In this document: positions 22,729 through 35,248 of the stretch, in pieces
Position numbering within the stretch: the first letter of the stretch is position 1
Layout of the letters: each line of letters begins with the position of its first letter
Virus record (IMG/VR): IMGVR_UViG_3300010399_000024
Location: 1-38,497 of that record
Length of the DNA: 38,497 nt
Source: a virus
Direction: 5' to 3' (one strand)
Notes under the pieces: model-generated
What the model saw: the letters and a program-made list of their open reading frames with translations, nothing else
What the model was told of the DNA's origin: nothing
Database searches by the model: none
Made by a program: the position numbers and the translations under genes

Positions 22729-23243
22729 GCAAATTTTTAGAGGCCGTTACTATGGTTTTGCGCCATGAAGGCGGCCTTGAGCGCAACGAAGATGGCAGCG
22801 ATGCGGGAGGAATCTCGAATCATGGCATTTCATTACGTTTTTATAAGACCATAAAACCAGATGCAACCGCATGGGATATAGAATCGCTATCTATAACAGA
22901 AGCTGAAGATATATATCAGCGTAAATTCTGGATTCCGATGCGCCTTGATGAGATCGAAAATCAAAAACTAACTAATAGAGTTTTAGATTTAGCAGTCAAT
23001 ACAGGTATGAGAGAAGCAGCTCTTATGCTTCAACGCGCCTTAAACTCGATACACCCCAAAATATGCGTTATAGACGGCGTAATAGGCATCAGAACAATAG
23101 CTGCTGCTAATGGTCAAAACCCAGATGCTTTATACAACAGGCTTATATTAGAAGCTACAAAATATTATAATGAGATTAGCCGGCTAGGAAAGAATCACGT
23201 CTTTCTCGATCCATGGCTAATAAGACTGAACGACACGCCTTAA
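22725..23243 (+). CDS. Endolysin, GH108-type N-acetylmuramidase
   Basis: The 172-residue protein has the GH108 signature: HEGG at residues 14-17 with the catalytic glutamate E15, then the SDAGGISNHGIS segment. The second half, from about residue 95 (LDLAVNTG, then MLQRALN and DGVIG), matches the peptidoglycan-binding domain usual in this family. It cuts the glycan strands of the cell wall at lysis. There is no signal peptide, so it needs a holin for export. A small membrane gene follows. Confidence 0.9.
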   Translation: MSKFLEAVTMVLRHEGGLERNEDGSDAGGISNHGISLRFYKTIKPDATAWDIESLSITEAEDIYQRKFWIPMRLDEIENQKLTNRVLDLAVNTGMREAALMLQRALNSIHPKICVIDGVIGIRTIAAANGQNPDALYNRLILEATKYYNEISRLGKNHVFLDPWLIRLNDTP

Positions 23244-23327
23244 ATCTACAATCTCTTACATAGTAATTAGCTTGTTGCCATAGAGGTTGCATTAATACAC
23301 TTTATACTATGTATATAAGGACGAGAA

Positions 23328-23474
23328 ATGAAAAAAGGGATTTTGATTGTGTTTGCGCTTTATCTGGTGGCGTGTGTCTTATATATTATCTATATGGCGC
23401 CACCAGAACACAAATATGAAGAATTAAAGCTCGCCAGAGACAGCATTGAACTACTTGAGCTTATTGCTGAATAA
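23328..23474 (+). CDS. Small membrane or lipoprotein, 48 aa, next to endolysin (lysis candidate)
   Basis: MKKGILIVFALYLVACVLYI is a typical hydrophobic N-terminus; LVAC at residues 13-16 fits a lipobox, but the hydrophobic stretch continues past the cysteine (to about residue 23), so it may simply be a membrane anchor. The rest is charged and helical. AAGGACGAG precedes the start. A spanin-like or holin-like role is plausible from its place after endolysin. Its end overlaps the convergent leftward gene by 14 bases. Confidence 0.65.
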   Translation: MKKGILIVFALYLVACVLYIIYMAPPEHKYEELKLARDSIELLELIAE

Positions 23475-24465
23475 AATTGTTTACCGCCTCTCCTATTGCT
23501 TTCAACAATTTATCATCTCTTGGCTCGTTCCCTTCCATGCCAAAACTAGAAGTTCTAAGCTCTAAGTGGGCAAATAAACCCACGTCACGATTCCCCGCAT
23601 TTTGAGCATTGCCGCCATTAATGTAGCGCGCTTCAACGCAAGTGTTGATTACACCATCGTTTTGTCTAAACCAAGAAGTGCCGGGTGTAAATCCAGGTGG
23701 ATTAATATATGGCAAATTATTTTTAGTTCCTGGCAAGCTTTTAGTGGTCATAGTGAAATTATTGCATTCTTCAAGTGGAAAAGCATCAGTTAATGCATAT
23801 GCAAATTCCCTGCAAATACTAGGGATATTTTGTACAAATTGTGCATTGTAGGCATTGTGTAATAGCAGGTGCATATTAGCACCCCCTTTCATGCCGTGTA
23901 TTTGTATATGCGGCAACTTTGGATAGGCATCATATATCCAGCTAGATACGAATCTAAACAAACATTGCCAAGCATGAGCGCAATCACTATTTGCTCTATT
24001 TGGTTGCCCATCTGCTTTGCCGTGACCGCAATCCCTGCTTGCAGCATTACTAATCATGCATAGTGGTCGCCAGAAATCGTTATTGCCTACAAGCCTAGCC
24101 GTTACTCTAAATACTAAATCAGATTTATTATGTGGGTCCTCGATTACAACCTGTAAAGCTTTAGGGTCAAAGTTCCAATACAGCACTAGTGGCCATTTGC
24201 TAATGTCTTTGTGGCGATAAAATACTAATTCAGGACTATTGTCTAATACATAGCACTGCAAGCCTAAGGTGTCGGTAGCTGCCTTAATAGCATCGGCATT
24301 TTTGGCAACGAGAGCGTCAATGAGAGCTTTTGTGTTATGGCGAGTGGTATCGGATGGATCTACATAATCTTTGATTGGCTGGCCTATAAAATCATTTATA
24401 TTGGCTAATAATGTAGGACTAGTGGAGCATACTTGATAGGTTTTGATTAGCTCTTGTAGAGTCAT
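23461..24465 (-). CDS. Protein of unknown function, 334 aa, possible metal-dependent hydrolase
   Basis: GGAGA lies five bases before the start. The middle shows ASRDCGHGK, NRANSDCAHAW and HIQIHGMKGG, and the end shows GNRDVGLFAHLELR. This order (Asp/His pair, HG motif, late NR and LELR) reminds me of M14-like and poly-gamma-glutamate-hydrolase-type zinc enzymes, but I cannot establish homology. There is no signal peptide or membrane segment. It is the last gene of the leftward operon, next to the lysis genes. If it is a hydrolase, a capsule or peptidoglycan target is possible. Confidence 0.5.
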   Translation of the reverse strand: MTLQELIKTYQVCSTSPTLLANINDFIGQPIKDYVDPSDTTRHNTKALIDALVAKNADAIKAATDTLGLQCYVLDNSPELVFYRHKDISKWPLVLYWNFDPKALQVVIEDPHNKSDLVFRVTARLVGNNDFWRPLCMISNAASRDCGHGKADGQPNRANSDCAHAWQCLFRFVSSWIYDAYPKLPHIQIHGMKGGANMHLLLHNAYNAQFVQNIPSICREFAYALTDAFPLEECNNFTMTTKSLPGTKNNLPYINPPGFTPGTSWFRQNDGVINTCVEARYINGGNAQNAGNRDVGLFAHLELRTSSFGMEGNEPRDDKLLKAIGEAVNNFIQQ

Positions 24466-24681
24466 CTAATTCTCCATTTTAAATTTGTTTGGGTTTTCAT
24501 TCTGGATTTGATTGTTTATTGGTGGCATAGGTTGTGGTAACTGCTCTTGAAATGGCAGTCTAGATGTATGCTTGTCTATAAGATAAGACCAAAACTGCTG
24601 CCTTTGCTTTTGGCTTAATTCAGTATATTGACCATCTTTGTTTCTTCTAAACACTTTAGTCTCTCTGGTTACAGGTATCAT
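24466..24681 (-). CDS. Hypothetical protein, 71 aa
   Basis: A polar protein: a basic N-terminus (RETKVFRRNKDGQYTELSQK), then a proline- and glutamine-rich, probably disordered tail. It overlaps the previous gene as ATGA and ends directly before the 334-residue gene, so the three are one translational unit. No family is recognised. Confidence 0.6.
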   Translation of the reverse strand: MIPVTRETKVFRRNKDGQYTELSQKQRQQFWSYLIDKHTSRLPFQEQLPQPMPPINNQIQNENPNKFKMEN

Positions 24682-24863
24682 GGTCTAGGTCGCCCCAAGC
24701 AACAGCTACAAGCTTCGAGTATAGCATTTTTAAAAGCGTCCCAAGCGCATGGAGGCGCAACTTCAGCGATAGGGATCGCTTCTATTGGAGGAGTTAGAGG
24801 TAATGAGTATGGCGGCTCTATATAGATTCTGGTGCGAAATATACCAAACTGAGGTGTAAACAT
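24678..24863 (-). CDS. Hypothetical proline-rich protein, 61 aa
   Basis: GGAG stands seven bases before the start. The first 40 residues are rich in proline and isoleucine (YIEPPYSLPLTPPIEAIPIA); the end has AFKNAILEACSCC with three cysteines. The stop overlaps the next start as ATGA. The function is unknown. Confidence 0.55.
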   Translation of the reverse strand: MFTPQFGIFRTRIYIEPPYSLPLTPPIEAIPIAEVAPPCAWDAFKNAILEACSCCLGRPRP

Positions 24864-24898
24864 AGGAAATCTCCATTGTTTCTTTTAGTTTAGCAGGT

Positions 24899-25243
24899 TT
24901 ATGGGGTTTCTAAATAGTCCAGCATCTTCGTGCAGTTGTCTCTTAAAGCAATTAATCCGGCTTTATCGTAAATAGTTTCATGCACGCCAGAGTTTTTGTT
25001 TTGCTTTATAACTATTGAGCGATAAAAATCATTGTATTTAATAATAGTTGTTGAGTCGTTGCCAACTATATTGCAGCTGGTATAGGGCGGCTTATTAGCA
25101 AAACGATTGATGATTTTTTCTAAAAGCTGAATATTGAAAAAGTCCCTAGATTCTGGTCTGCCATCGGGATTAACGGGTAACATATTTAAGTCTTTACTGT
25201 TTTTAATTTCTGCAATCAGCTCTTCTGCTTCATCGTTAGTCAT
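24899..25243 (-). CDS. Small protein of the MTESEAQELI family, 114 aa
   Basis: It begins MTNDEAEELIAEIKNSKDLN, a variant of the N-terminal module found in six genes between 24899 and 27008. The tail is longer than in the others and ends KAGLIALRDNCTKMLDYLE, which resembles LTQLRDNINKMLEYLN at the end of the gene at 26639. EKIINRFANK also matches EKIINRFVEA in the gene at 25534. It overlaps the upstream gene by eight bases. The role is unknown. Confidence 0.7.
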   Translation of the reverse strand: MTNDEAEELIAEIKNSKDLNMLPVNPDGRPESRDFFNIQLLEKIINRFANKPPYTSCNIVGNDSTTIIKYNDFYRSIVIKQNKNSGVHETIYDKAGLIALRDNCTKMLDYLETP

Positions 25244-25397
25244 TCTGCATCCCCTCCAAAATCAAACGTGTTATCACCGTAATCAAAGCAGTCCTAGCGC
25301 ATAACATTCCTTCTTGAAAAGATTTATTGCCAACATCTTCAGGAAGCTTAATTTTATGAATTTTCCTAAGCAGCTCTTGTACTTCAGTTTCCGTCAT
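25236..25397 (-). CDS. Small protein of the MTESEAQELI family, 53 aa
   Basis: It begins MTETEVQELLRKIHKI and continues with a tail unlike the other members, but its middle (SFQEGMLCARTALITVI) recalls MNSVMGGILLGLIEARDLI in the gene at 25796. It overlaps both neighbours (ATGA upstream). It is too short for most gene finders, but start overlap and shared N-terminus support it. Confidence 0.65.
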   Translation of the reverse strand: MTETEVQELLRKIHKIKLPEDVGNKSFQEGMLCARTALITVITRLILEGMQND

Positions 25398-25537
25398 TTG
25401 TTTTCCTCATCTTGGAAACATTTTAAAACAAGCCGTTCAATTCTATTTTTATTGGATTTAAACAACACATTTTTTATCTGCCAATATCCTGGCACTATCC
25501 AAACAAATTGCTTATATGCCGGATGATAAATAATCAT
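25394..25537 (-). CDS. Hypothetical protein, 47 aa
   Basis: The frame begins MIIYHPAYKQFVWIVPGYWQ, is aromatic and basic, and is linked to both neighbours by ATGA overlaps. It does not carry the shared N-terminal module. The function is unknown. Confidence 0.55.
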   Translation of the reverse strand: MIIYHPAYKQFVWIVPGYWQIKNVLFKSNKNRIERLVLKCFQDEENK

Positions 25538-25806
25538 TTATTATTTTTTCTCCATGGAGCCTCACCCATTAAACAACCAGCAGGACAGCAACATGTATCT
25601 AAAAATACATGGATATCTTTTATGTTTTGTTGCAATTTTTGAACCTCAGAAACAGATGGCTGTTGGGATGCCTCAACAAAACGGTTGATGATTTTTTCGA
25701 AAGTATAAGAAGTATGTTTCAGTTCAGGCATGTCTACTCCGAGCTCTGCCACATAAGCCTTTTTAATCTCTGCAATTAGTTCTTGTGCCTCACTTTCAGT
25801 CATCAT
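25534..25806 (-). CDS. Small protein of the MTESEAQELI family, 90 aa
   Basis: Two ATG codons in a row open the gene; the shared module MTESEAQELIAEIKKAYVAE starts at the second. EKIINRFVEA in the middle matches the gene at 24899. The end is cysteine-rich (FLDTCCCPAGCLMGEAPW), which may bind a metal. GGAAG precedes the start, and the gene overlaps the upstream gene by 11 bases. Confidence 0.7.
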   Translation of the reverse strand: MMTESEAQELIAEIKKAYVAELGVDMPELKHTSYTFEKIINRFVEASQQPSVSEVQKLQQNIKDIHVFLDTCCCPAGCLMGEAPWRKNNK

Positions 25807-25945
25807 CTTCTTCCAAAATTAAATCTCTTGCTTCAATCAACCCTAGCAAGATCCCACCCATAACGGAGTTCATAGGTATGTTTTCTTCTTTCATATCTTC
25901 AATCCTATCATTAAGAATTTCAATTATTTCATTAATATCTTTCAT
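25796..25945 (-). CDS. Hypothetical acidic protein, 49 aa
   Basis: MKDINEIIEILNDRIEDMKE begins a helical, acidic protein ending LEEDDD. It shares only a loose likeness with the tail of the gene at 25236. It overlaps the downstream gene and touches the upstream one, in keeping with one polycistronic unit. Confidence 0.55.
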   Translation of the reverse strand: MKDINEIIEILNDRIEDMKEENIPMNSVMGGILLGLIEARDLILEEDDD

Positions 25946-26112
25946 TAATCAACCTTAATCTGTATTTTTAATAATTGAATCTCTAATTGTAATTGTATTA
26001 TCTCTAGCTTTAATGCCGTTAATTGCTGTTCAGAAACTAATGCTAATTCGGCCACTTTGGTTGCATGATCTAATACATTGTTAATTAGCTCTTGCGCTTC
26101 ACTTTCTGTCAT
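25945..26112 (-). CDS. Small protein of the MTESEAQELI family, 55 aa
   Basis: I start at the module MTESEAQELINNVLDHATKV; an in-frame ATG at 26130 adds MHGIND. The tail is a near-perfect leucine/isoleucine heptad helix (LEIIQLQLEIQLLKIQIKVD), so it is probably a coiled-coil dimer. The stop overlaps the next start by one base. Confidence 0.65.
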   Translation of the reverse strand: MTESEAQELINNVLDHATKVAELALVSEQQLTALKLEIIQLQLEIQLLKIQIKVD

Positions 26113-26151
26113 ATCGTTTATTCCATGCATCTTTAACCATTTGTTTTCCTA

Positions 26152-26337
26152 TTATTCTTCAAGCCATTCACATGTGATCATAGGGGTATTGGTCGCTAAT
26201 GATAGCTCAAATTTTAAACTAAAATTTGGCTTCCCTTTACATTCAGTTATACAAGAAGCTAATAAATCACATAGCTTTTTAGCTTCATCATGCGTAAGCT
26301 CTATAGTAAATGGATTTGATTTATGCGGTGATTTCAT
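26152..26337 (-). CDS. Hypothetical protein, 61 aa
   Basis: A compact small protein (FTIELTHDEAKKLCDLLASC, then KPNFSLKFELSL). THDEAKKL may be a distant version of the shared module, but the likeness is too weak to count. It ends CEWLEE. No family is recognised. Confidence 0.6.
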   Translation of the reverse strand: MKSPHKSNPFTIELTHDEAKKLCDLLASCITECKGKPNFSLKFELSLATNTPMITCEWLEE

Positions 26338-26338
26338 T

Positions 26339-26452
26339 TTAGCTAAAAAACCACCATGAAAGCAGCCCCCATGTCGCCACAGCTACAATTAGTGTTATCA
26401 CTACGTTTCTAGCTTTGCGCCTAAAATCTTCAAACTCATCAAAATCAATCAT
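26339..26452 (-). CDS. Single-pass membrane peptide, 37 aa
   Basis: MIDFDEFEDFRRKARNVVIT leads into the hydrophobic VITLIVAVATWGLLSWWFF. I chose the ATG that overlaps the previous stop (ATGA). A longer in-frame start at 26578 would lie inside the previous gene. It could be a holin- or superinfection-type membrane peptide. Confidence 0.5.
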   Translation of the reverse strand: MIDFDEFEDFRRKARNVVITLIVAVATWGLLSWWFFS

Positions 26453-26649
26453 CCAAAAACCCTCGCTACAGGATAAAGCCCAAACATTAGCTGCCATATT
26501 ATAAATATTATTATCCATATCAGGAAAAACGCCATACGAATATCTTTGTTGTCTTTGGTTACCCATAATATGCCACATACATAAATAGCAATCGTTGCAA
26601 TTACATAAAAGCCAAATATTATACCGTATGCAAATATTTCAGGTTTCAT
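26449..26649 (-). CDS. Two-pass membrane protein, 66 aa
   Basis: Two hydrophobic segments (about residues 5-29 and 39-61) flank the polar loop TKDNKDIRM. Size and layout would fit a small holin or another membrane-acting early protein. It overlaps the upstream gene by 11 bases and the downstream one by four. Confidence 0.6.
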   Translation of the reverse strand: MKPEIFAYGIIFGFYVIATIAIYVCGILWVTKDNKDIRMAFFLIWIIIFIIWQLMFGLYPVARVFG

Positions 26650-26824
26650 TGTTTAAATATTCTAACATTTTGTTAATGTTATCGCGTAGCTGCGTTAGTT
26701 CATCTGCGCTCATAATTCCAGATAAAATCACATCATCATCATCATGATCAATAAGCTGTAATATTGATTTTTTTAGCTCGCTATCAATCTCTGCAATCAG
26801 CTCTTGCGCTTCACTTTCCGTCAT
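26639..26824 (-). CDS. Small protein of the MTESEAQELI family, 61 aa
   Basis: The module MTESEAQELIAEIDSELKKS opens the gene. The tail (LIDHDDDDVILSG, then DELTQLRDNINKMLEYLNNE) is acidic and shares its end with the gene at 24899. It overlaps the upstream family member by 14 bases. Confidence 0.7.
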   Translation of the reverse strand: MTESEAQELIAEIDSELKKSILQLIDHDDDDVILSGIMSADELTQLRDNINKMLEYLNNET

Positions 26825-27008
26825 CTTTATCTTTCTCTTGATAAGTATATATAATCTCTAATCTTTTCTTTAAATATTCTAAAGTTTCTATTAATTCTAA
26901 TGCCCCTTGCTCAGATAGTTTAGCTTTTCTTTTTATATCTATAAAGCCACCGCAAGGAAAAGAATATCTGTCATGCAATATCAACTCTTGTGTTTCACTT
27001 GCCGCCAT
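26811..27008 (-). CDS. Small protein, distant member of the MTESEAQELI family, 65 aa
   Basis: It begins MAASETQELILHDRYSFPCG, a diverged form of the module. The rest (KLSEQGALELIETLEYLKKR onward) is helical; its LIETLEYL is like the endings of other members. AGGA lies nine bases before this ATG; a TTG two codons upstream is in the same frame. It is the first gene after a 75-base gap. Confidence 0.6.
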   Translation of the reverse strand: MAASETQELILHDRYSFPCGGFIDIKRKAKLSEQGALELIETLEYLKKRLEIIYTYQEKDKDDGK

Positions 27009-27014
27009 GTTCAA

Positions 27015-27084
27015 TAATCCTATTATACTGGGTTTAAAATCAATTTAAGATAATTTTTTAATATAATCCTATTAACATAGGATT
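27015..27084 (-). promoter_or_regulatory. AT-rich gap with hairpin and repeated AATAGGATTAT
   Basis: On the minus strand AATCCTAT-GTTA-ATAGGATT forms a perfect 8-bp hairpin (27065-27084) that includes the end of the upstream gene, and ATAGGATTAT recurs just before the next gene. TATAAT at 27027-27022 could be a -10 box with only a weak -35. This is the one clear spacer in this part of the operon, so it may be an internal promoter or processing site. Confidence 0.4.
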
Positions 27085-27329
27085 TATAGTTGAGCTCCCA
27101 TCTTAAGTTTCGGCAAATTCAAACCTTCCTCGTCCAAAATCATAATCGCAGGCCCCATAGCCATTTGTTCCCATACTTCACCAAGCCTGTAACCCGCCAT
27201 TAATTGCGCCTCACCACGTGTGATATATCTATCATAACGGCAACCATTGTTTTTAAACGCGCTAGTAGCTTTCCAGCCATCGACAGGTTCGCCATTTATC
27301 ATAAGGCCCACTATTTCTTCTTTTCGCAT
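27084..27329 (-). CDS. Hypothetical protein, 81 aa
   Basis: A compact mixed alpha/beta small protein: MRKEEIVGLMINGEPVDGWK, then RYITRGEAQLMAGYRLGEVW. Its end coincides with the hairpin. It starts one base downstream of the zinc-ribbon gene. No family is recognised. Confidence 0.65.
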   Translation of the reverse strand: MRKEEIVGLMINGEPVDGWKATSAFKNNGCRYDRYITRGEAQLMAGYRLGEVWEQMAMGPAIMILDEEGLNLPKLKMGAQL

Positions 27330-27330
27330 A

Positions 27331-27510
27331 TTATTTACCTTTATTTTCTTTATGCTTAATAAACTCTAACGCCACATAATTCAATAAATCTAATTCACAA
27401 TCCCCACAGAACCCATAAGACCCCCATCGAAGCCTCGTATCTGGCATCCTTACAGACTCTCTAAAGTCACGCTCGCACACAATACATATTTCAGTTATTT
27501 TTTGAGCCAC
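27331..27510 (-). CDS. Small zinc-ribbon protein, 59 aa
   Basis: It starts at GTG (GAGGA upstream). CIVC at about residues 9-12 and CGDC at about residues 36-39 form a four-cysteine zinc ribbon separated by RMPDTRLRWGSYG. It overlaps the end of the membrane gene. Such ribbons in phage early genes often bind nucleic acid or host proteins; the role here is unknown. Confidence 0.6.
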   Translation of the reverse strand: MAQKITEICIVCERDFRESVRMPDTRLRWGSYGFCGDCELDLLNYVALEFIKHKENKGK

Positions 27511-27682
27511 ATATTTCCTCTATTAAGGCTTTCACAAAGAGAGCTATCATCGCAAACAGGATAAACGGCCATCCAACAATGCATAGTATTGCCGCCAAAC
27601 ACATTTGAGTTAAATTGTCTATATTCTCGAAATATACAAACACGATAAATGTAATTAGAAATCCGAAAATATAAAGCAACAC
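27491..27682 (-). CDS. Two-pass membrane protein, 63 aa
   Basis: I start at GTG 27682 because AGAGG lies upstream and the previous gene stops three bases before; an ATG at 27766 would overlap that gene by 80 bases. Two hydrophobic segments (about residues 2-19 and 29-51) are joined by ENIDNLTQ, with a charged C-terminus. It is another small membrane protein of the operon. Confidence 0.55.
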   Translation of the reverse strand: MLLYIFGFLITFIVFVYFENIDNLTQMCLAAILCIVGWPFILFAMIALFVKALIEEICGSKNN

Positions 27683-27683
27683 T

Positions 27684-27920
27684 TTAATTAACCTCTTTAG
27701 GTGTTTGTTCTTGCAGATAATTCCATGCTTGCATAACATCTTCATGCGATATATGCAGCAATACAAACTTCTTTGAGCTGTCTTGTGTTGTTGTATGCGT
27801 GACGCCTCTAACAGGAAGCGTTATAGGAATGCCGGCAATCATAACGGCAATTTCTGCATCTACATCAAAGTTATTAGTGTCGCGCACAAAGTTACGCAGA
27901 TTGAGTACTTGTTCCGTCAT
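27684..27920 (-). CDS. Hypothetical protein, 78 aa
   Basis: A beta-rich small protein (FDVDAEIAVMIAGIPITLPV, then FVLLHISHEDVMQAWNYL). It overlaps the alpha-CTD fusion gene by 29 bases. It lies in the control part of the operon. No family is recognised. Confidence 0.6.
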   Translation of the reverse strand: MTEQVLNLRNFVRDTNNFDVDAEIAVMIAGIPITLPVRGVTHTTTQDSSKKFVLLHISHEDVMQAWNYLQEQTPKEVN

Positions 27921-28551
27921 TTTTTATCTCCAAATGTGCAGTTAGGTTTGACCAGTTATTGATAGCCTGATAAAGAACTGGGAAAATATCTTCGTGTCGA
28001 TCATAATATACCTCATTAGATTTCTGTATCAGGCCGCATTTGTCACATACAATAGAAAAGCCACCGCCATTCCATGAAAGTCTCGGCGCTTTATTGCATA
28101 TAATGCAATTTTTGGCTCTGGGCATTTCTTTGTTAACCTCGATCACTTTTTCCGTCATTACTATTTTTTCTTTCGGAATTTCTATGACTTTTTCAACTTG
28201 CGTGATTTTCTGCTTAAAAACAGGAAGCTCAATTTTTGCAAAGATTTCCTTTATTTGTTGCCGTATTTCTTGTTCTATAGCATCTAATCCTGGCTCTACA
28301 GGCTTTATAACTGAAGGCTTTGCGCCTAAAGATAATCCTTTTCTTGCTAAAGTGTCTTTTAGATCAAGAAGGCTTTTTCTGCCAAAATTAGGAATATGCA
28401 TTAACTCTTTATCTTCCATCGCACAAAGCTGCTCAAGCGTTAAAATATTTTCAGCCCATAAACAATTTTCCGTTCTAACAAGCAACATTAAAGGGCCAAT
28501 CTCTTTATCAAAAAGCTCTCTTTTTGCTTCCCATGTCATAGCTTTATTCAT
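27892..28551 (-). CDS. RNA polymerase alpha C-terminal domain-like protein fused to a zinc ribbon
   Basis: Residues about 15-76 closely resemble the C-terminal domain of bacterial RNA polymerase alpha: RTENCLWAENI, then IPNFGRKSLLDLKDTL and KGLSLG. The residues that contact promoter DNA in E. coli alpha (R265, N268, C269, G296, K298, S299) are all present as R26, N29, C30, G57, K59, S60; K271 is replaced by W and E302 by D. Residues 88-142 are a charged helix with the repeat EKVIEIPKE/EKVIEVNKE. Residues 149-172 hold a zinc ribbon (C149, C152, C169, C172) like that of Lar-type proteins. The alpha N-terminal dimerisation domain is absent. It could redirect host polymerase or bind UP-like DNA. 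It overlaps both neighbours. Confidence 0.8.
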   Translation of the reverse strand: MNKAMTWEAKRELFDKEIGPLMLLVRTENCLWAENILTLEQLCAMEDKELMHIPNFGRKSLLDLKDTLARKGLSLGAKPSVIKPVEPGLDAIEQEIRQQIKEIFAKIELPVFKQKITQVEKVIEIPKEKIVMTEKVIEVNKEMPRAKNCIICNKAPRLSWNGGGFSIVCDKCGLIQKSNEVYYDRHEDIFPVLYQAINNWSNLTAHLEIKNDGTSTQSA

Positions 28552-28726
28552 TCGCCTGCTCGCCTCTCATCTCACGCAACAAATTATCTAACACAGCATT
28601 TAAGTCGTCATCTTCCTCTTTTAATTGCTTTTTACGCGCAATAACTTGTTCGAGCTTGCGTTTCTCGTCACCCTTAACCTTGTCGCTTAACAATTCAACC
28701 AGCTCTAAATATGTAACCTTAGCCAT
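28544..28726 (-). CDS. Helical charged small protein, 60 aa
   Basis: Strongly charged and helical (LSDKVKGDEKRKLEQVIARK, then EEDDDLNAVLDNLLREM), probably a coiled coil. Its stop overlaps the start of the alpha-CTD fusion by eight bases, so the two are likely made together. No family is recognised. Confidence 0.6.
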   Translation of the reverse strand: MAKVTYLELVELLSDKVKGDEKRKLEQVIARKKQLKEEDDDLNAVLDNLLREMRGEQANE

Positions 28727-28736
28727 CTAATGCTCC

Positions 28737-29234
28737 TTAAAACGGTGTATCCAAATCATCGCCACCTTTGTCATAAAACTCTTTCAATTTAGCATCATCT
28801 GTTTGCGGATTTTCCCACGGCAAAAACTTAGCTATTACATTCTTATCAGAATATTGACCCGTTTTATCTTCTTGAATCTTTACATAACATTTGCCTTTAT
28901 GGCCCAGCAAATCCTGTATAAGATTGCGCTTGTTATAGTTTTCGCTATCAATTTCAGGCTTGTTAATAGCTTTGGCTATATTGCCGATCTTAGTGTTTAA
29001 GCGCTTCATGCCATCTTCATCATTCTTTGTAGCAATTAGATAATCATAAATACGCCATTCGCGGCCATTCATATCTCGCACAACAAATAATACTTCTAAC
29101 ATCTTATTGCCAGATTTAGATACTTTAGGTATTACCTGGTTAATTCTAAATACGCCTTGACCTTCAGCCATTAGCTCAACACGGTCTTTGGGGCCTAAAT
29201 AATCATACTCAAACTCTAAATCGCTGTAACTCAT
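28737..29234 (-). CDS. DUF669-type recombination-associated protein, 165 aa
   Basis: AAGGAG precedes the ATG at 29234 (MSYSDLEFEYDYLG), which I prefer to an in-frame ATG at 29279. The protein has the pattern of DUF669 phage proteins, with a beta-barrel-like core (FRINQVIPKVSKSGNKMLEV, then FVVRDMNGREWRIYDYL) and an acidic tail (DKGGDDLDTPF) as in single-stranded-DNA-binding proteins. It lies next to the RecA-like ATPase, its usual partner. It probably binds single-stranded DNA during phage recombination. Confidence 0.75.
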   Translation of the reverse strand: MSYSDLEFEYDYLGPKDRVELMAEGQGVFRINQVIPKVSKSGNKMLEVLFVVRDMNGREWRIYDYLIATKNDEDGMKRLNTKIGNIAKAINKPEIDSENYNKRNLIQDLLGHKGKCYVKIQEDKTGQYSDKNVIAKFLPWENPQTDDAKLKEFYDKGGDDLDTPF

Positions 29235-29248
29235 TAATTTTCTCCTTG

Positions 29249-29317
29249 TTAAAATATAAAACCATAAATAATTGCACAAATATAAGCCATTGCAACAAAG
29301 CCTATAATGCCCATCAT
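29249..29317 (-). CDS. Membrane micropeptide, 22 aa
   Basis: MMGIIGFVAMAYICAIIYGF is a single hydrophobic helix. GAGGTG stands before the two ATG codons, and the start overlaps the ATPase stop. Another ribosome binding site for the DUF669-type gene follows it directly. It may be a real micropeptide or only a coupling frame. Confidence 0.4.
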   Translation of the reverse strand: MMGIIGFVAMAYICAIIYGFIF

Positions 29318-30168
29318 TTCACCTCTTTGCTATTAATTTTATCTTGCAGAGTTGTAATGCATTTTGCAATAATTTCTTGCGGCATATCCTCGAAACAATC
29401 GCAATTAGCTTTTGTAAACCATTTCTCTACCATGTCTGGCGGAATACTCAATAAGCTAACCAATCTTTTGATTTCACCAACCTGTTCTTTTGTTGCTAAG
29501 TTTTGTGGAGTAACTGCTTTTTCTAAGCTTTCTATGCCACAACGTTTGATGACTTCTGCATAGTTGAAATTGATGTCCTCATTAGTTTCAAATGTGTCAA
29601 GCCGACTTTTTTTAACAACGGCATAAAATTGTTTGCCAGCAACATGCGTCTCTAACACCAAATCAAACATATATCCAAGGCGTTTATAGCCAGCATATGT
29701 GGTGCCTTTTAATGTCATATTATCGCCATATTCTTTTTTGGCTTGGCACGTAACAATAACGTTCGCATCAATTCGCAACAATAGATTAATTAATTGTTTA
29801 ACTTTAGCATCCGCCGCCGCTATGTGACGACCAAAATCAGAACCTACTCTCTTTTCACATTCTATGATCAAGTTTTCATATGCAACAGTCAAGCTATCAA
29901 TAACAACTGTTTTAAAATCATGCTTTTGTGTCATTAACTCTTTAACCTGAGCAATAATTTCATCCAAATCGCCAGTGTTAATAACGCCACCGCCATTATC
30001 TGCAATAGCTTTGGCATACTTTATCTTGCTAGATGTGTCCTCTGTATCAAAATAAGCTACATTTGGCATTGCGCAGCAAATAGAGCTTTTACCGCTTCCC
30101 ATTTCGCCATAAACAAGCATCTTTAATCGCTGCTGCTTAACTTCTGGTTTTTTAAATTTTAGAGCCAT
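29314..30168 (-). CDS. RecA-like phage ATPase (Sak4/AAA_24 type)
   Basis: The 284-residue protein has Walker A GEMGSGKSS at residues 21-29, DTEDTSSK at 41-48, and a Walker B-like VVIDSLT with D91. TCQAKKEYG in the middle corresponds to the sensor region of RecA-like single-domain ATPases. Size and order fit the Sak4-type annealing and recombination ATPases of phages. It is followed by the DUF669-type gene. The C-terminal 60 residues form a helical domain. It should promote strand annealing in replication-coupled recombination. Confidence 0.85.
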   Translation of the reverse strand: MALKFKKPEVKQQRLKMLVYGEMGSGKSSICCAMPNVAYFDTEDTSSKIKYAKAIADNGGGVINTGDLDEIIAQVKELMTQKHDFKTVVIDSLTVAYENLIIECEKRVGSDFGRHIAAADAKVKQLINLLLRIDANVIVTCQAKKEYGDNMTLKGTTYAGYKRLGYMFDLVLETHVAGKQFYAVVKKSRLDTFETNEDINFNYAEVIKRCGIESLEKAVTPQNLATKEQVGEIKRLVSLLSIPPDMVEKWFTKANCDCFEDMPQEIIAKCITTLQDKINSKEVK

Positions 30169-30170
30169 AA

Positions 30171-30299
30171 CTACTCACCCTTATTTTTAAGCAAAAAATC
30201 TATCGCTATCAAACTAAAAACTGCCCATCCAGGCTCACCAAATATAATTCCTACAAACATACTTCCCAAAACCGCTATAACTAAACTGCTATCTACCAT
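30171..30299 (-). CDS. Two-pass membrane peptide, 42 aa
   Basis: MVDSSLVIAVLGSMFVGIIF, a short GEPG turn, then AVFSLIAIDFLL. It ends three bases before the ATPase gene and is the first gene behind the leftward promoter, so it should be made early. It could be an inner-membrane exclusion or holin-like peptide. Confidence 0.55.
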   Translation of the reverse strand: MVDSSLVIAVLGSMFVGIIFGEPGWAVFSLIAIDFLLKNKGE

Positions 30300-30304
30300 G
30301 ATTC

Positions 30305-30333
30305 TTGACATTCCCCATAAGATACGTCATAGT
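30305..30333 (+). promoter_or_regulatory. Rightward promoter for the ribbon-helix-helix gene
   Basis: A perfect TTGACA and CATAGT (4 of 6) are 17 bases apart. Its -10 box overlaps that of the leftward promoter on the other strand. Transcripts would start near 30340, about 36 bases before the regulator gene. Confidence 0.5.
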
Positions 30334-30356
30334 AACACGATTATTAATGTTGTCAA
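30329..30356 (-). promoter_or_regulatory. Main leftward promoter of the early operon
   Basis: On the minus strand TTGACA (30356-30351) and TACTAT (30334-30329) are 16 bases apart. TCTTGACA at 30303 and TGTCAAGA at 30351 make an 8-bp inverted repeat that contains both -35 boxes. It drives the 6.8-kb leftward operon. Confidence 0.65.
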
Positions 30357-30375
30357 GATGGAGATTTAGAAAAGC

Positions 30376-30540
30376 ATGAAAAAGTTTGAGGGGGAGCGCA
30401 AGGTTAGGCGAGGGATAAGTTTAGATCCAAAATTGCTAACTAAAATGGAGCAGGAAGCCGAACAACGAACCGGCGGCAATCTTAGTTTATTGTTAACTAA
30501 AATATGCTTGGTATTCCTTGATGGCAAAATTAAAATTTAG
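30376..30540 (+). CDS. Ribbon-helix-helix regulator, 54 aa
   Basis: After a basic arm (MKKFEGERKVRR) comes GISLDPKLLTKMEQEAEQR, then GGNLSLLLTKICLVFLDG, which is the strand-helix-helix pattern of Arc/CopG-type repressors, at their usual length. Its gene lies directly right of the overlapping divergent promoters, so it may control them. A GC-rich inverted repeat follows its stop. Confidence 0.7.
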   Translation: MKKFEGERKVRRGISLDPKLLTKMEQEAEQRTGGNLSLLLTKICLVFLDGKIKI

Positions 30541-30862
30541 CCTATACTACAACTAGGCGCGCAGATAATTAAACTTGTTTCCATGACTAACTCCCTTGTC
30601 ACCGCGCGCCTACCTGCAAATGTTAAATAAAAATCTATCAGAAGTTAAAAAAGCTTTTTGTGTTTAAGCGCTTAAGTCATTGATTTATAAGGATTTTTAT
30701 CTTTAAAAGGTTAAATATTGGTTTTGTGTTTAAGCACTTGTGCTTATTGCAAGATTTTACCTGATCTAGTAACTTCAGAATTATGTTTTATAGAGTTTAA
30801 ATAAAAAACCCAGCAGTATCGGGTCGGCAGACAGTTTACTACTGGGCTTTAGGAGGTCTTTT
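30541..30862. other. Non-coding control region with repeats and palindromes
   Basis: No convincing gene is present. It holds an inverted repeat TAGGCGCGC/GCGCGCCTA (30554-30562 and 30604-30612) and a perfect 12-bp palindrome TTAAGCGCTTAA (30664-30675). A second palindrome TAAGCAC-TT-GTGCTTA is at 30731-30746. Both palindromes begin inside a 14-base direct repeat TTTTGTGTTTAAGC (30656 and 30722, 66 bases apart). A stem CCCAGCAGTA/TACTACTGGG with one mismatch (30812-30846) precedes AGGAGG. These may be operators, initiator sites or a leader RNA. Confidence 0.55.
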
Positions 30863-30919
30863 ATGTCTATTATTCCAATCCCTAAAGAAAGGAAAGAAAC
30901 AAAAGGAATATGCATATGA
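30863..30919 (+). CDS. Possible leader peptide, 18 aa
   Basis: A textbook AGGAGG lies six bases before the ATG, the strongest ribosome binding site nearby, yet the frame encodes only MSIIPIPKERKETKGICI. It follows a hairpin. It overlaps a second mini-frame as ATGA. A role in translational control of the replication gene is possible. Confidence 0.4.
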   Translation: MSIIPIPKERKETKGICI

Positions 30920-30981
30920 TCTACCATCCCTTGTGCCTCTGTCAATCCCTTAACCACAAATCATTTAGTTTTAAAGCTTAG
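30916..30981 (+). CDS. Possible second leader peptide, 21 aa
   Basis: The frame (MIYHPLCLCQSLNHKSFSFK and one more residue) is coupled to the first mini-frame by ATGA and ends 14 bases before the replication gene, whose GAAGGA lies just after its stop. It may serve only to carry ribosomes to that gene. Confidence 0.3.
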   Translation: MIYHPLCLCQSLNHKSFSFKA

Positions 30982-30995
30982 AAGGACATTAAGCC

Positions 30996-31625
30996 ATGAC
31001 ATCTATCGCTACTAATAAACCAAAACATAAGCCATATAAATTTAAAAGTTCTATTATCGACATTAATCGCAAGATGTATAAATGGGCAGAAAATTTGGCA
31101 GACAATGAACTAATATCTCATGCAGTCATGCATACTTTAAAAGCAATCATTTCTGAAAGATTAGTACCTCAAGCAACCATCTCACAAATTAATGCTACTA
31201 GGGATAGGTCCATTACTAAATTCTCTCAAGATGACAAAGTTTGTAATAGGACTATCCGTAGGCATATCAAATTATTAGAGCGATTAAAATACATAAAAGT
31301 AACTAGAGCACATAAAGATTGGAAGACTAGAAACTCTTATTTCATCTGCGTTCCAGACGAATACTTAGTTGCTCAACGTGGGGACATCGTGTCCTCCTCT
31401 ATAAGCTGTTCTTCTTCTCTTTCAGAGAAGAAGAAGAACACATATTTTAAAAATAAAACCAAGATATCAAAGCATGACAAACACGCGCCGGCTAGCTTGC
31501 CCCTTGACGGGGCAGCTGCCGGCGTGCCTTCATATGAGGACAAAAAACCATTGAGCGCAGAAAAGAGGCAGTGGGGGATAGAGCAATTACAATTATTAAA
31601 ACAAATGTTGGGGACTAAAAAATGA
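30996..31625 (+). CDS. Helix-turn-helix replication protein, 209 aa
   Basis: Residues 40-115 contain a winged-helix region like that of phage replication initiators (AVMHTLKAIISERLVPQATI, then VCNRTIRRHIKLLERLKYIK). A low-complexity linker follows (about residues 130-185, serine- and lysine-rich) and a short helical C-terminus (RQWGIEQLQLLKQMLG) that could recruit a helicase. In lambda-like and P22-like phages such genes contain the origin within them; this one has three strong hairpins in the linker part. It heads a plus-strand replication operon and overlaps the next gene by four bases. Confidence 0.65.
   Translation: MTSIATNKPKHKPYKFKSSIIDINRKMYKWAENLADNELISHAVMHTLKAIISERLVPQATISQINATRDRSITKFSQDDKVCNRTIRRHIKLLERLKYIKVTRAHKDWKTRNSYFICVPDEYLVAQRGDIVSSSISCSSSLSEKKKNTYFKNKTKISKHDKHAPASLPLDGAAAGVPSYEDKKPLSAEKRQWGIEQLQLLKQMLGTKK
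31380..31523. repeat. Three consecutive hairpins inside the replication gene (origin candidate)
   Basis: Hairpin 1 (31380-31396) is GGGGACA-TCG-TGTCCTC. Hairpin 2 (31407-31440) has a 14-base arm TGTTCTTCTTCTCT, a TTC loop and a complementary arm with one extra AAG. Hairpin 3 (31487-31523) pairs GCCGGC, AGCT and GCCCC with GGGGC, AGCT and GCCGGC, with two bulged T residues and loop TTGAC. Hairpin 3 is far more GC-rich than its surroundings. The protein encoded here is low-complexity, so DNA or RNA structure may be what is conserved. Confidence 0.6.
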
Positions 31626-31948
31626 AAATTATTAAGGCTAATGTAAATCGCAAAAATACAAAAAATGTTATACCGCTAGAAGCCTATCATTTAGCACAGA
31701 AAGCTAAAGATGAGGGATTAACTTATATTGAAAAAGAAAAATTCTATATGTTAACTAAACAATTAGAGTTTAGAGGGGCTAGGAAACCAGAAGTTGAACG
31801 TATGTTTGATCAATTTAATGCTTTGGTGACATTTCTTGAACAATGCTGTCATGTTGAGACATTAGAAGAAGAATCACATATGTTAGAATTGTACATTGAT
31901 TGGGTTTATGAATGTTTTGATAAACTTAAAGTTAAAGATCAAAAATGA
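31622..31948 (+). CDS. Hypothetical protein, 108 aa
   Basis: A helical charged protein (LEAYHLAQKAKDEGLTYIEK, then KLEFRGARKPEVERMFDQFN). It overlaps both neighbours by four bases (ATGA). Its place between the replication protein and a VRR-NUC nuclease suggests a replication accessory role. No family is recognised. Confidence 0.6.
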   Translation: MKIIKANVNRKNTKNVIPLEAYHLAQKAKDEGLTYIEKEKFYMLTKQLEFRGARKPEVERMFDQFNALVTFLEQCCHVETLEEESHMLELYIDWVYECFDKLKVKDQK

Positions 31949-32244
31949 GCAATCATAGAATCATTACACAGTCTGATAATGTTCAGGCCGAATATATGAA
32001 GAAACAAGGTCTTGTTGCTGGCATGCCAGATCTAATGATAGCTATACCCAATAAAATCTATCATGGGCTTTTTATAGAGCTTAAAGCCATAAATGGAAAA
32101 GCAGCTGCAAATCAAAAATCAATTGCAACTCATCTGAACAATAAAAATTATTTGGCTTTAATCTGCTATGGTTGGTTAGAAGCAAAAGCTCAAATTGAAA
32201 AGTATATGAAAAATATTATACCATTATCAGCGGTGGCAATATGA
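31945..32244 (+). CDS. VRR-NUC domain nuclease, short form, 99 aa
   Basis: The core of the VRR-NUC fold is present: KKQGLVAGMPDLMIAIPN (conserved GxPD with the catalytic aspartate), GLFIELKAINGKA (conserved ExK), then Q57 and a C-terminal helix. The family's usual N-terminal glutamate-containing helix is short here. VRR-NUC enzymes cut branched DNA and lie with replication and resolvase genes in phages, as here. It is coupled to both neighbours by ATGA. Confidence 0.8.
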   Translation: MSNHRIITQSDNVQAEYMKKQGLVAGMPDLMIAIPNKIYHGLFIELKAINGKAAANQKSIATHLNNKNYLALICYGWLEAKAQIEKYMKNIIPLSAVAI

Positions 32245-32411
32245 ATAGACACGAAAAGCAACAAATGTTAGACAAGCTTCTTAAAAAGCATAAAGCTGAA
32301 GGTTTAACTCAAGCTGAAAAGCTAGAACTACATTTGTTGTTAAACACTAAAGTCAGGGATGATAATGACAATCGAGATTACTATGTGCCTAAAGTGGAGT
32401 ATCTTCACTAA
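32241..32411 (+). CDS. Small helical protein, 56 aa
   Basis: MNRHEKQQMLDKLLKKHKAE is followed by LTQAEKLELHLLL and a polar tail ending YYVPKVEYLH. It starts inside the nuclease stop (ATGA). Its pattern GLTQAEKLELHLLL recalls GLTYIEKEKFYMLT in the gene at 31622, so the two may be distantly related. Confidence 0.6.
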   Translation: MNRHEKQQMLDKLLKKHKAEGLTQAEKLELHLLLNTKVRDDNDNRDYYVPKVEYLH

Positions 32412-32426
32412 TTTGGAATATTATCT

Positions 32427-33197
32427 ATGACGGATATAGATAAGATATTACCTTTTCTTAAAGCTTTGGCTAATGATCCAGATGAGATCAGAGTTATTAC
32501 TATTTATGGGAAACCATGTTCAAAAGCGAGACCTCGATTAGGCAGGTATGGTGTATATAAAGACAAAAAAGATTCTAGTAATGAATCAAAAACCAAAGCT
32601 GCATTGATTAAATCTATAGAAAATCCATATCTAGGCAATGTGGCAATGGCATGTTTATTTTATAGAGACACCAAACAAAGAATAGACACTGATAATTTAT
32701 TAAAACATGTTTGTGACTCGGCTAATGGAGTGGTATGGATAGATGATTCTCAAGTTACCGCCATAACTGGAGTTTTAGAATATGATCCAATCAATCCTAG
32801 AACTATTTTTGCATGTGCGCCACATGTTACAAGCATGTCACGAGGCATAGATAGTAAAAGAAAATGCGAAAAATGTGACAATGAGATTCATATTAAAGGC
32901 GCATGGCATAAAAAAAGATTTTGTGATGCGTGCAAACACTTGCATATGTTTAGGCCAAAAAAACCAAAGTCATGTGCAATATGTAACAGTTCTTTTGCTC
33001 CGGACAAAAAGCATAGAAAATTTTGCTCTAATAAGTGTGCAGGTAAAAATTTATCGAATATTAAAACTGGAAAACCGACAGGCAGGACAAAGCCTTTTAG
33101 TTCTTGCCAGGATTGCGGCAAGCAACTAGCTCATAGAAGGGGCGGAAGATGTCGGAAATGTTATCATAATGGTAGGATTAAATATGATGAGAATTAA
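32427..33197 (+). CDS. RusA-type Holliday junction resolvase with three C-terminal zinc knuckles
   Basis: Residues 20-130 are a RusA domain: IYGKPCSKARPRLG at 26-39 and RIDTDNLLKHVCD at 85-97 with the metal-binding D87 and D89, then VWIDDSQV with D106/D107. RusA is normally about 120 residues. Here residues 147-245 add three four-cysteine knuckles: C147/C150-C166/C169, C183/C186-C200/C204 and C227/C230-C242/C245. The extra part looks like the knuckle arrays of phage HNH enzymes. It should resolve branched DNA before packaging. Confidence 0.85.
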   Translation: MTDIDKILPFLKALANDPDEIRVITIYGKPCSKARPRLGRYGVYKDKKDSSNESKTKAALIKSIENPYLGNVAMACLFYRDTKQRIDTDNLLKHVCDSANGVVWIDDSQVTAITGVLEYDPINPRTIFACAPHVTSMSRGIDSKRKCEKCDNEIHIKGAWHKKRFCDACKHLHMFRPKKPKSCAICNSSFAPDKKHRKFCSNKCAGKNLSNIKTGKPTGRTKPFSSCQDCGKQLAHRRGGRCRKCYHNGRIKYDEN

Positions 33198-33321
33198 ATT
33201 TAGCCCCCTGGTGGCATGGAAGTATGCATCAGAGAAATGGCAACTTGATGAATGGGTTGTTGGTTTCTTGGTGGCAGTTTTAATTTTAATGTTGGTGGTT
33301 GCAATATTGGCTAGCTGGTAG
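33184..33321 (+). CDS. Single-pass membrane protein, 45 aa
   Basis: The start lies inside the end of the resolvase gene (ATGATGA). A polar half (SPLVAWKYASEKWQLDEW) is followed by the membrane helix VVGFLVAVLILMLVVAILAS. It is the last gene before the bidirectional terminator. The role is unknown; an inner-membrane peptide is likely. Confidence 0.6.
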   Translation: MMRIKFSPLVAWKYASEKWQLDEWVVGFLVAVLILMLVVAILASW

Positions 33322-33367
33322 TATTATTTAAAAGTGATTTAAATATACAAATGTTACCCAACCCGAT

Positions 33368-33397
33368 ATAAAAGGGGGCCTATCCACCCCCTTTTAT
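33368..33397. terminator. Bidirectional Rho-independent terminator
   Basis: ATAAAAGGGGG and CCCCCTTTTAT form a perfect 11-bp stem with an 8-base loop. Each strand gives a GC-rich stem followed by a short T run. It lies exactly between the rightward replication operon and the convergent leftward operon. Confidence 0.9.
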
Positions 33398-33401
33398 CCT
33401 T

Positions 33402-33557
33402 TTAGGCGCCATACAGCATTCTAATCTCTGCTTCTTTTTCTTTGCATTCTTTCAAGCTAAGCCCCGGTGTTTTATATACATCAAGTATTTTAGCCATCAT
33501 TACCACCATATCTAAATGATGTAGCATTTCAGCTTCTAGTTCGTTTTCAGTTTTCAT
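33402..33557 (-). CDS. Hypothetical small protein, 51 aa
   Basis: MKTENELEAEMLHHLDMVVM begins a helical, acidic protein ending EAEIRMLYGA. Its start overlaps the upstream stop by ATGA. The end touches the terminator. The opening is only loosely like the MTESEAQELI module and I do not count it as a member. Confidence 0.6.
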   Translation of the reverse strand: MKTENELEAEMLHHLDMVVMMAKILDVYKTPGLSLKECKEKEAEIRMLYGA

Positions 33558-33817
33558 AATATGACCTTAAAATCGTTTGCGTTAAATAAATCCCAATCTG
33601 TTGTCTCGATAGTACTTAGATCAGTATATGGATTGTTATGCCACTCAAGCATTACTTCTTCGCCATATGCACTGATTGCAGCAGCTTGATATACACATCT
33701 GTCTTTGTATTCTGCCTTAGAACTTACATAAGGCTGCTGCAAAAGCGCATATTCAATGCGCGTTTCTGGATGTTTGTAAATTTCATTAGTGTCTATCAAT
33801 GCTCTAAAATCGATCAT
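33554..33817 (-). CDS. Hypothetical protein, 87 aa
   Basis: A compact protein with aromatic and acidic residues (FRALIDTNEIYKHPETRIEY onward). It overlaps both neighbours by four bases. I see no known motif. Confidence 0.6.
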   Translation of the reverse strand: MIDFRALIDTNEIYKHPETRIEYALLQQPYVSSKAEYKDRCVYQAAAISAYGEEVMLEWHNNPYTDLSTIETTDWDLFNANDFKVIL

Positions 33818-34017
33818 AATAACTCCATAACTTTGTTAATCTTAATCATATCCTCAGTGCTCAAGTTCCCAAGTCGTGTCTCTGGAAATAGCTTTTTAAC
33901 AATCTCATAAGCTTTATTCCAGTTATCTTCGTTGAAGCTTTCTTCCTCGTTTGCCTGCTCTAACCAGGTATAATAACGGTGTAAATCGGCTGTAATGGCG
34001 CATGGTGTATCATTCAT
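33814..34017 (-). CDS. Hypothetical protein, 67 aa
   Basis: Helical and acidic, with DLHRYYTWLEQANEEESFNE in the middle. It overlaps both neighbours (four bases each). The function is unknown. Confidence 0.6.
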   Translation of the reverse strand: MNDTPCAITADLHRYYTWLEQANEEESFNEDNWNKAYEIVKKLFPETRLGNLSTEDMIKINKVMELL

Positions 34018-34172
34018 TTGCTGTATTCCTCGTTTAAATAATTATCTAAATCATCACCCTCAAGCTCGTACCATTTTTGCCCAAGTTCTTCGATGACAAA
34101 ATCTATACATGCTTGGCAGCCGCAGCCTTTAACTTCGGCTGCAAAATTCGCTACTATTTCGTAATTATCCAT
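34014..34172 (-). CDS. Small cysteine-containing protein, 52 aa
   Basis: MDNYEIVANFAAEVKGCGCQ continues with ACIDFV, so C17, C19 and C22 are close together and might bind a metal. The rest is acidic and helical. It overlaps the neighbouring gene on each side by a few bases, as do all genes of this operon. Confidence 0.6.
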   Translation of the reverse strand: MDNYEIVANFAAEVKGCGCQACIDFVIEELGQKWYELEGDDLDNYLNEEYSK

Positions 34173-34546
34173 TATTTCAACTCCAATCTGCGTGTAGGCG
34201 CACCCACTTTCTTTACTACTTCGTATACATCTGCAAAATGTGTACGCAATGCATCTCTATCAACTGATTCCGTACCTTTAATCCAGTTGTAAGTCGCAAT
34301 TCTTTTGCCAAATTTGTCTATCACAGTTTCAAAATCGCCGATTATAACTTTGATTTTGTCACGTATAGCTTTGTGCGCAGCTTCTTGTGCCTTTATCTGC
34401 TTGTCCATCTCGATAGCTGTATCAATTAAGCTTGCAAGCATATCTGTTGCAAGCATCGCAGAGGCTGGCACTGTAATGTTTGTATTTAATTTAACTATAT
34501 TGGTAGCGTTGGTCGGCGCTCTCATCGTATTTGTTATATCTTTCAT
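34172..34546 (-). CDS. Phage protein, 124 aa, possible recombination accessory
   Basis: First gene behind the leftward promoter. Residues 30-75 form a charged helix (AIEMDKQIKAQEAAHKAIRD). The C-terminus (GKRIATYNWIKGTESVDRDA, then HFADVYEVVKKVGAPTRRLE) resembles the small helical proteins often found with YqaJ-type recombinases, which share an ending with a bulky residue plus RR and an aromatic or Leu. No YqaJ gene is visible. The assignment is tentative. Confidence 0.55.
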   Translation of the reverse strand: MKDITNTMRAPTNATNIVKLNTNITVPASAMLATDMLASLIDTAIEMDKQIKAQEAAHKAIRDKIKVIIGDFETVIDKFGKRIATYNWIKGTESVDRDALRTHFADVYEVVKKVGAPTRRLELK

Positions 34547-34580
34547 TTTTTATCTATCCAGTTGTGTCGTTGATGAGGTA

Positions 34581-34608
34581 AGTGTAGCACAGTTGTTACG
34601 CATGTCAA
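34581..34608 (-). promoter_or_regulatory. Leftward promoter of the small operon
   Basis: On the minus strand TTGACA (34608-34603) and TACACT (34586-34581) are 16 bases apart. TGTCAACA here and TGTTGACA at 34643 form an 8-bp inverted repeat holding both -35 boxes. Between them, TAATAAT and ATTATTA (34618-34640) form a second inverted repeat. Confidence 0.65.
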
Positions 34609-34644
34609 CATGTTTTTATAATAATATGCATAAAATTATTACTG

Positions 34645-34673
34645 TTGACACGATTTAGGGGATTAGCTAAACT
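34645..34673 (+). promoter_or_regulatory. Rightward promoter giving a near-leaderless mRNA
   Basis: TTGACA and TAAACT (4 of 6) are 17 bases apart. The start point should fall at about 34680, only about two bases before the ATG at 34682, so this mRNA would be nearly leaderless, like lambda cI from its maintenance promoter. Confidence 0.65.
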
Positions 34674-34681
34674 AGTTTTAT

Positions 34682-35248
34682 ATGGATACAGCAATAAAAC
34701 AGCAGTGTAAAAGGTGCAGAGGTACTAAATCAGTGCGTGGCATGGGCGGCTTGGATAAGGCGTGCCCTGAATGTAAGGCTACTGGTTTTGTGACTCTTGA
34801 AAGCAGTGCATCTACACTAAATAGTGATAAAGCGGCGGACATTGTTCCGCCGACCATTGTTAATGTTACTCCCGTTGATTCTACAACTTTACTATCCGGA
34901 GTTGATCGGTCACCATCAATGGGAGTGGCGCCCGATGTTAAAGAAGTGATTGAAGCGCCTAAAAAGCCACCAGAGCAAGAATTAGGTGAGATGAGCGGTT
35001 ATACACCGCTTATGATTGAGGCGCTGATGGCGGAACCTAGAATGAAGCCTGATGAATGGCGTAGAAAGTATGGCGCAGTGGTGCTAGACCCGCTTAGTCA
35101 GCCAAAACCGGGCAAACAGTATTTGCCTGATTTGCAGTCTAGGGCTAAATTTAGAGAGAATGTAGCGAGGATGCAAAAACCGAAACCTAGGAAGCATAAT
35201 ACGATGGCGACACATGATTTAGCGGGGAAGTTAGAGGGGATTGAGTGA
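34682..35248 (+). CDS. Zinc-finger protein with DnaJ-type CxxCxG motifs, 188 aa
   Basis: Residues 9-34 contain CKRCRGTKS and CPECKATGF, two DnaJ-like half-motifs making one zinc site. A variable linker follows, then a C-terminal domain (YTPLMIEALMAEPRMKPDEW onward). The ending KPRKHNTMATHDLA matches KPRKHNIMRSQDEA in the gene at 35639. It is the first gene of the rightward unit leading to the small terminase. DnaJ-type zinc sites can bind unfolded protein or RNA; the role here is unknown. Confidence 0.65.
   Translation: MDTAIKQQCKRCRGTKSVRGMGGLDKACPECKATGFVTLESSASTLNSDKAADIVPPTIVNVTPVDSTTLLSGVDRSPSMGVAPDVKEVIEAPKKPPEQELGEMSGYTPLMIEALMAEPRMKPDEWRRKYGAVVLDPLSQPKPGKQYLPDLQSRAKFRENVARMQKPKPRKHNTMATHDLAGKLEGIE

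Follow-up and report, generated by a model that had tools for sequence, protein, structure and literature searches.

Why would a phage encode the DNA-binding end of the RNA polymerase alpha subunit, and what would it do with that domain once it is cut loose from polymerase? We analyzed a 38,497-nucleotide stretch of viral DNA (the window) that carries on its minus strand a 219-aa ORF (P0001; 27892-28551, ATG start), at exactly the position given by an earlier sequence-only reading, encoding an alpha C-terminal domain (alpha-CTD), a linker and a candidate zinc ribbon. An ORF in antisense, 28040-28591 (+), was regarded as overlapping the coding strand by chance. The window is the complete genome of a P22-like podophage with a 123-bp terminal repeat; its genes include those for a terminase, a P22-type portal, and major head and head-closure proteins. 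The portal shares 20-25% identity with its relatives in named phages, half of which are Vibrio phages, and one further portal relative lies in a cellular genome, a Parvularculaceae MAG contig (L134), which is weak evidence on the host. Elsewhere in the window, 291-411 (+) matches an Rfam tRNA model (47.5 bits, 121 nt long), with added nucleotides in its anticodon arm, and its variable region is long; ARAGORN gives no tRNA there, and the element is possibly an interrupted or pseudo-tRNA.

We found that residues 10-69 of the protein score 56.1 bits with the PF03118 profile, whose cut-off is 23.8 (E=3.1e-15), and a phmmer search of the PDB matched solved alpha-CTDs at E about 3e-10; by these sequence scores the match is far beyond chance. 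An AlphaFold2 model of the whole protein, built on 43 sequences, has a mean pLDDT per ten-residue block of 91-98 over residues 11-70 and 86 for residues 71-80. VIA-align places predicted residues 11-77 on the E. coli alpha-CTD with an rmsd of 0.5 Å for 67 residues and a Z of 14.0, and DNA-bound alpha-CTDs are among the top Foldseek and VIA-align rows for the model. We place the domain at residues 10-77 (28321-28524, minus strand). The alpha-NTD is absent: the alpha-CTD begins near residue 10, and full-length RpoA models match the ORF at their C-terminal end only, far below cut-off. Profile and predicted fold together identify the N-terminal part of this phage protein as a genuine RNA polymerase alpha-CTD, in line with the sequence-only reading, which had named the domain, looked to a structure prediction for its fold and noted that the polymerase-assembly domain is missing.

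The rest of the protein is less regular. AlphaFold2 secondary structure places helices at residues 88-106 and 110-122 (28186-28290, minus strand), followed by an EKVIE-repeat segment at residues 123-148 (28108-28185, minus strand) that is mostly disordered by prediction. Since pLDDT falls below 50 over residues 123-143, home to much of the repeat, the linker first described as a repeated helix is better named a disordered tether; helices are predicted to about residue 122, and the repeat itself is not helical in the model. Residues 149-210 (27922-28107, minus strand) make up a candidate four-Cys zinc ribbon and C-terminal helix, with cysteines at 149, 152, 169 and 172, the motif AINNW at 196, predicted strands over 157-183 and a predicted helix at 189-210, a zinc-ribbon-like order. 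The cysteine pattern and the model make a four-Cys zinc ribbon plausible. The earlier assignment of a ribbon has four cysteines and a suitable predicted order of strands and helix behind it; no model in Pfam, NCBIfam or PHROG matches the candidate ribbon confidently, no solved structure matches it, and the ribbon modelled alone is poor (pLDDT 55).

The two CxxC pairs and the later A-x3-W motif recall Lar (PF14354), and the ribbon could on that account be the business end of the protein, a diverged Lar-type antirestriction domain for which the alpha-CTD is a mere DNA anchor. The phage itself carries three PF14354 Lar restriction-alleviation genes (35851-36183, 37512-37721 and 37681-37911, all plus strand), the first of which has a coiled-coil-like stretch ahead of its Lar ribbon and is predicted to form a helix plus ribbon. 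In contrast to Lar domains, however, the ribbon of the 219-aa protein has more residues inserted behind its second CxxC, and searches of Pfam and NCBIfam that admitted hits to E=10 gave no match to Lar profiles (PF14354 or TIGR03655). A profile-profile comparison with Lar domains, using a profile made from the window's three Lar genes and one reference sequence that NCBIfam identifies as RalR/Lar, returned a probability of 0.9%. We consider a Lar-type function highly improbable, and do not claim Lar membership for the ribbon.

We compared the alpha-CTD residue by residue with that of E. coli, using a reference sequence that agrees with the PDB alignment. Identity is 28/60 over E. coli positions 256-315, and all eight of the UP-element DNA contact positions compared are kept, seven of them identically (R265/R26, N268/N29, C269/C30, N294/N55, G296/G57, K298/K59 and S299/S60) and E302 conservatively as D63. 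The six contacts listed by the sequence-only reading (R26, N29, C30, G57, K59 and S60) are therefore all present, with N55 besides, and the alignment agrees with it on two substitutions, K271 to W32 and E302 to D. W32 sits near the DNA face, which counts against the explanation we favor below; a pattern for W-type alpha-CTDs hit the window but nothing in IMG/VR. The opposite holds for the sigma-facing surface. D259 and E261 of the E. coli alpha-CTD contact sigma region 4, and the window protein has P20 and M22 in their place, whereas 37 of the 42 other phage alpha-CTDs retain at least one acid at 259/261. This acidic determinant characterizes the E. coli domain and is no requirement for belonging to PF03118. 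The activator-facing T285/E286/V287 are E/D/K. Judged from the alignment, the protein has retained the DNA face but lost the sigma face.

Loss of the acidic sigma contact makes competition, by occupancy of DNA, likelier than recruitment of polymerase. Under recruitment the protein would act as an activator, with its alpha-CTD on UP-like DNA and its ribbon on polymerase or a phage factor, bringing host polymerase to phage promoters. The retained DNA face would suit such a protein, and zinc ribbons are common polymerase-binding modules. The missing sigma-facing acids argue against it, however, and the ribbon, having no recognizable family, gives no pointer to polymerase contact. Promoter-like sites in 23000-35000 are also close to chance in number, with 56 found against 45.8 in shuffled sequence (sd 7.3). 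Together these points leave recruitment improbable.

The 219-aa gene is the fifth in a leftward run, all on the minus strand, that starts with a 46-aa ORF (30171-30311) and continues with a Sak4-like ssDNA annealing ATPase (29314-30168; phrog_124, E=5.4e-24; AAA_24), an SSB-like gene (28737-29234; phrog_378, E=4.4e-6) and a 60-aa gene of unassigned function (28544-28726). The 60-aa gene's stop and the start codon of the 219-aa gene overlap (ATGA), and the 219-aa gene in turn shares a 29-nt overlap at its end with the downstream gene, an arrangement as in a coupled operon. Upstream of the run lies a promoter-like site recognized by consensus match only (30329-30356, minus strand; TTGACA-16-TACTAT, TG-extended). 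The leftward operon noted at the outset is supported, as a DNA-metabolism operon. Between the leftward and rightward genes, at 30633-30739, are two 41-nt direct repeats, 76% alike with a spacing of 66, which are candidate operators or iterons.

This setting brings in a different explanation, that the protein is a DNA-binding accessory of a Sak4/SSB recombination-replication module with no role in transcription, its helix-hairpin-helix-type alpha-CTD and ribbon holding DNA that is A+T-rich or structured while it is annealed or replicated. The position of the gene, downstream of Sak4 and the SSB-like gene in one operon, speaks for it, and the known neighbors are recombination genes rather than regulators, which counts against a transcriptional function. 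Three phages related through the portal retain a Sak4 homolog with an SSB-like gene nearby, again as the accessory role would have it; yet the genes downstream are unrelated, and with no alpha-CTD gene in these phages the module evidently works without an alpha-CTD protein. The UP contacts kept by the window protein are, moreover, specific ones and not those of a generic helix-hairpin-helix.

No alpha-CTD was found in the 38 virus records that share the portal family, many of them fragments and five longer than 38 kb. This absence makes the 219-aa gene look accessory, and from sequence comparison it looks like an insertion in a variable slot. Full-length relatives of the protein were likewise not found in viral contigs, genome contigs, INPHARED or plasmids, so that conservation of the ribbon and tether has no comparison, a further point against our favored explanation. 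Four INPHARED matches (H3 and H7-H9; L002-L005) proved to be bacterial sequence, a normal rpoA with an L17-like ORF behind it, and were set aside.

To place the domain among other phages we surveyed IMG/VR. An alignment-based scan gave 80 loci, whose ORFs are mostly short and without the RpoA N-terminal part, and a DNA-pattern scan added more; combined, the two scans yield about 81 distinct phage proteins with an alpha-CTD. PF03118 matches 51/51 non-redundant members, the window protein included, and none of the PHROG families that these members match is named as alpha-CTD. One alpha-CTD copy was present in each of 15 records checked (15/15), and one terminase model matched in 5 of the 15; viral origin is thereby shown for some and taken from IMG/VR for the rest. 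The domain lies at the C-terminus in 61 of the 81 proteins and in the middle in 12, while 6 have it at the N-terminus and 2 consist of it alone, which puts the window protein in the N-terminal minority.

The patterns used for fetching include some contact residues, and we recounted conservation on the half of the domain that was not used. In proteins fetched by the C-terminal pattern only, R265 is kept in 19/20, C269 in 17/20 and N268 in 14/20; in those fetched by the N-terminal pattern only, N294 is kept in 15/18, G296 in 18/18, K298 as K or R in 17/18, S299 in 18/18 and E302 as E or D in 18/18. By this count the contact face is conserved across 42 phage alpha-CTDs beyond the fetching bias. 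Buried residues, L281 and I275 among them, are conserved likewise, as expected for the fold.

The partners of these phage domains include sigma region 4, HTH domains and, in a few cases, Cys/His clusters. Sigma70_r4 is found in 12 of the 51 non-redundant members, and the fusion of sister modules to sigma region 4 and HTH points to promoter DNA, which weighs against a role confined to recombination. In seven records (L021, L045, L057, L082, L084, L166 and L208) a sigma region-4-like HTH and an alpha-CTD share one protein, placing -35 and UP recognition modules on one polypeptide without polymerase. Cys/His-rich parts lie N-terminal to the alpha-CTD in L185, L165, L078 and L081, and no Pfam family matches these clusters. 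Other fusions of an alpha-CTD to a zinc module, which the sequence-only reading had proposed to look for, were thus found in part: these four short phage proteins pair an alpha-CTD with a candidate metal-binding cluster, as the window protein does, but in the reverse order, with the cluster first, and with no family to assign it to.

Two other kinds of architecture appeared in the survey. The cultured Ruegeria phage vB_RpoS-V16 encodes a 288-aa protein (L094:2917-3783) with an N-terminal alpha-CTD and the RefSeq label pyrophosphatase; it is possible that an alpha-CTD is joined here to a nucleotide pyrophosphohydrolase, and the second part has no Pfam match at E<=0.01. At L018:7839-8297 an alpha-CTD apparently lies within a short MTLRDYFA...AYAMADAMLKAR-type phage protein, and N-terminal parts resembling it precede the alpha-CTDs of L032, L046 and L173.

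We also scanned the genes that flank 35 phage alpha-CTD genes, two to either side; 120 families came up in all, a count that has no formal background. Among the named matches are DNA polymerase, Gam, NinG, endonuclease, exonuclease and Erf families, together with a few terminase and lysis genes, and this company lends the Sak4/SSB-accessory explanation further support. Set against the portal kin that have Sak4 and an SSB-like gene but no alpha-CTD, the specific UP contacts and the sigma region 4 of sister proteins, we regard that explanation as unlikely, though the likeliest of the alternatives.

The explanation we favor is that the 219-aa protein binds DNA early in infection, occupying A+T-rich, UP-like sequences with no polymerase attached, and so damps or retunes UP-dependent transcription; we put its probability at roughly 0.48, a little short of even. 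In this model, an early, non-structural protein of a P22-like phage would use a captured alpha-CTD, cut loose from polymerase, to bind UP-like, A+T-rich DNA in its minor groove, and perhaps also some of the regulators that bind alpha-CTD. The flexible tether would hold the four-Cys ribbon, which may supply a second contact with DNA or a protein partner. UP-type sites would then be occupied in place of the host alpha-CTD, and UP-dependent transcription would most likely be damped or retuned in the early phase of infection. From the evidence above we infer binding to DNA and to zinc, early expression and competition, as well as whatever effect the protein may have on transcription, and hypothesize that it acts as a host takeover factor, the role suggested when the locus was first read.

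Among known proteins, E. coli RpoA 250-316 (PF03118) is like the window protein in sequence, predicted fold and DNA-contact residues, and differs from it in belonging to a subunit with an alpha-NTD, in its 259/261 acids and T285/E286/V287, and in carrying no fused tether and ribbon. Phage proteins with the label "RNA polymerase alpha subunit C-terminal domain-containing" already exist in UniProt, so that the kind is known to databases. Examples are A0A2P1JY10 of Rhodococcus phage Finch, A0A5Q2WLP1 of Mycobacterium phage Mithril and uncultured Caudovirales entries; like the window protein they hold an alpha-CTD in a short chain (98 to 240 aa), and they are good structural matches to its alpha-CTD part, with no confident match over its ribbon. 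The open-access literature (our search did not extend to subscription papers) yielded no functional study of phage-encoded alpha-CTD proteins.

The alpha subunit is a known phage target, since both T4 Alt/ModA and the phiKMV-like Rac act on the host's copy of it (PMC2988021, PMC7552054). Those proteins modify host alpha or cause its cleavage, whereas the window protein carries a copy of the domain instead, and a phage with its own alpha-CTD would reach the control point hit by Alt/ModA and Rac by a different route. More generally, and more tentatively still, we propose that phages commonly use the free alpha-CTD as a tool, a captured module for binding promoter DNA, joined to unrelated partners (sigma region 4, HTH domains, coiled coils, Cys/His clusters and the ribbon described here) that substitutes for the host alpha-CTD at UP-type sites rather than modifying it. 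With about 81 phage alpha-CTD proteins in hand, many of them fusions and often encoded beside DNA-metabolism genes, a general "alpha-CTD mimic" strategy would be testable, and the reuse of this domain by many unrelated phages suggests a little-studied way to act at host or phage promoters.
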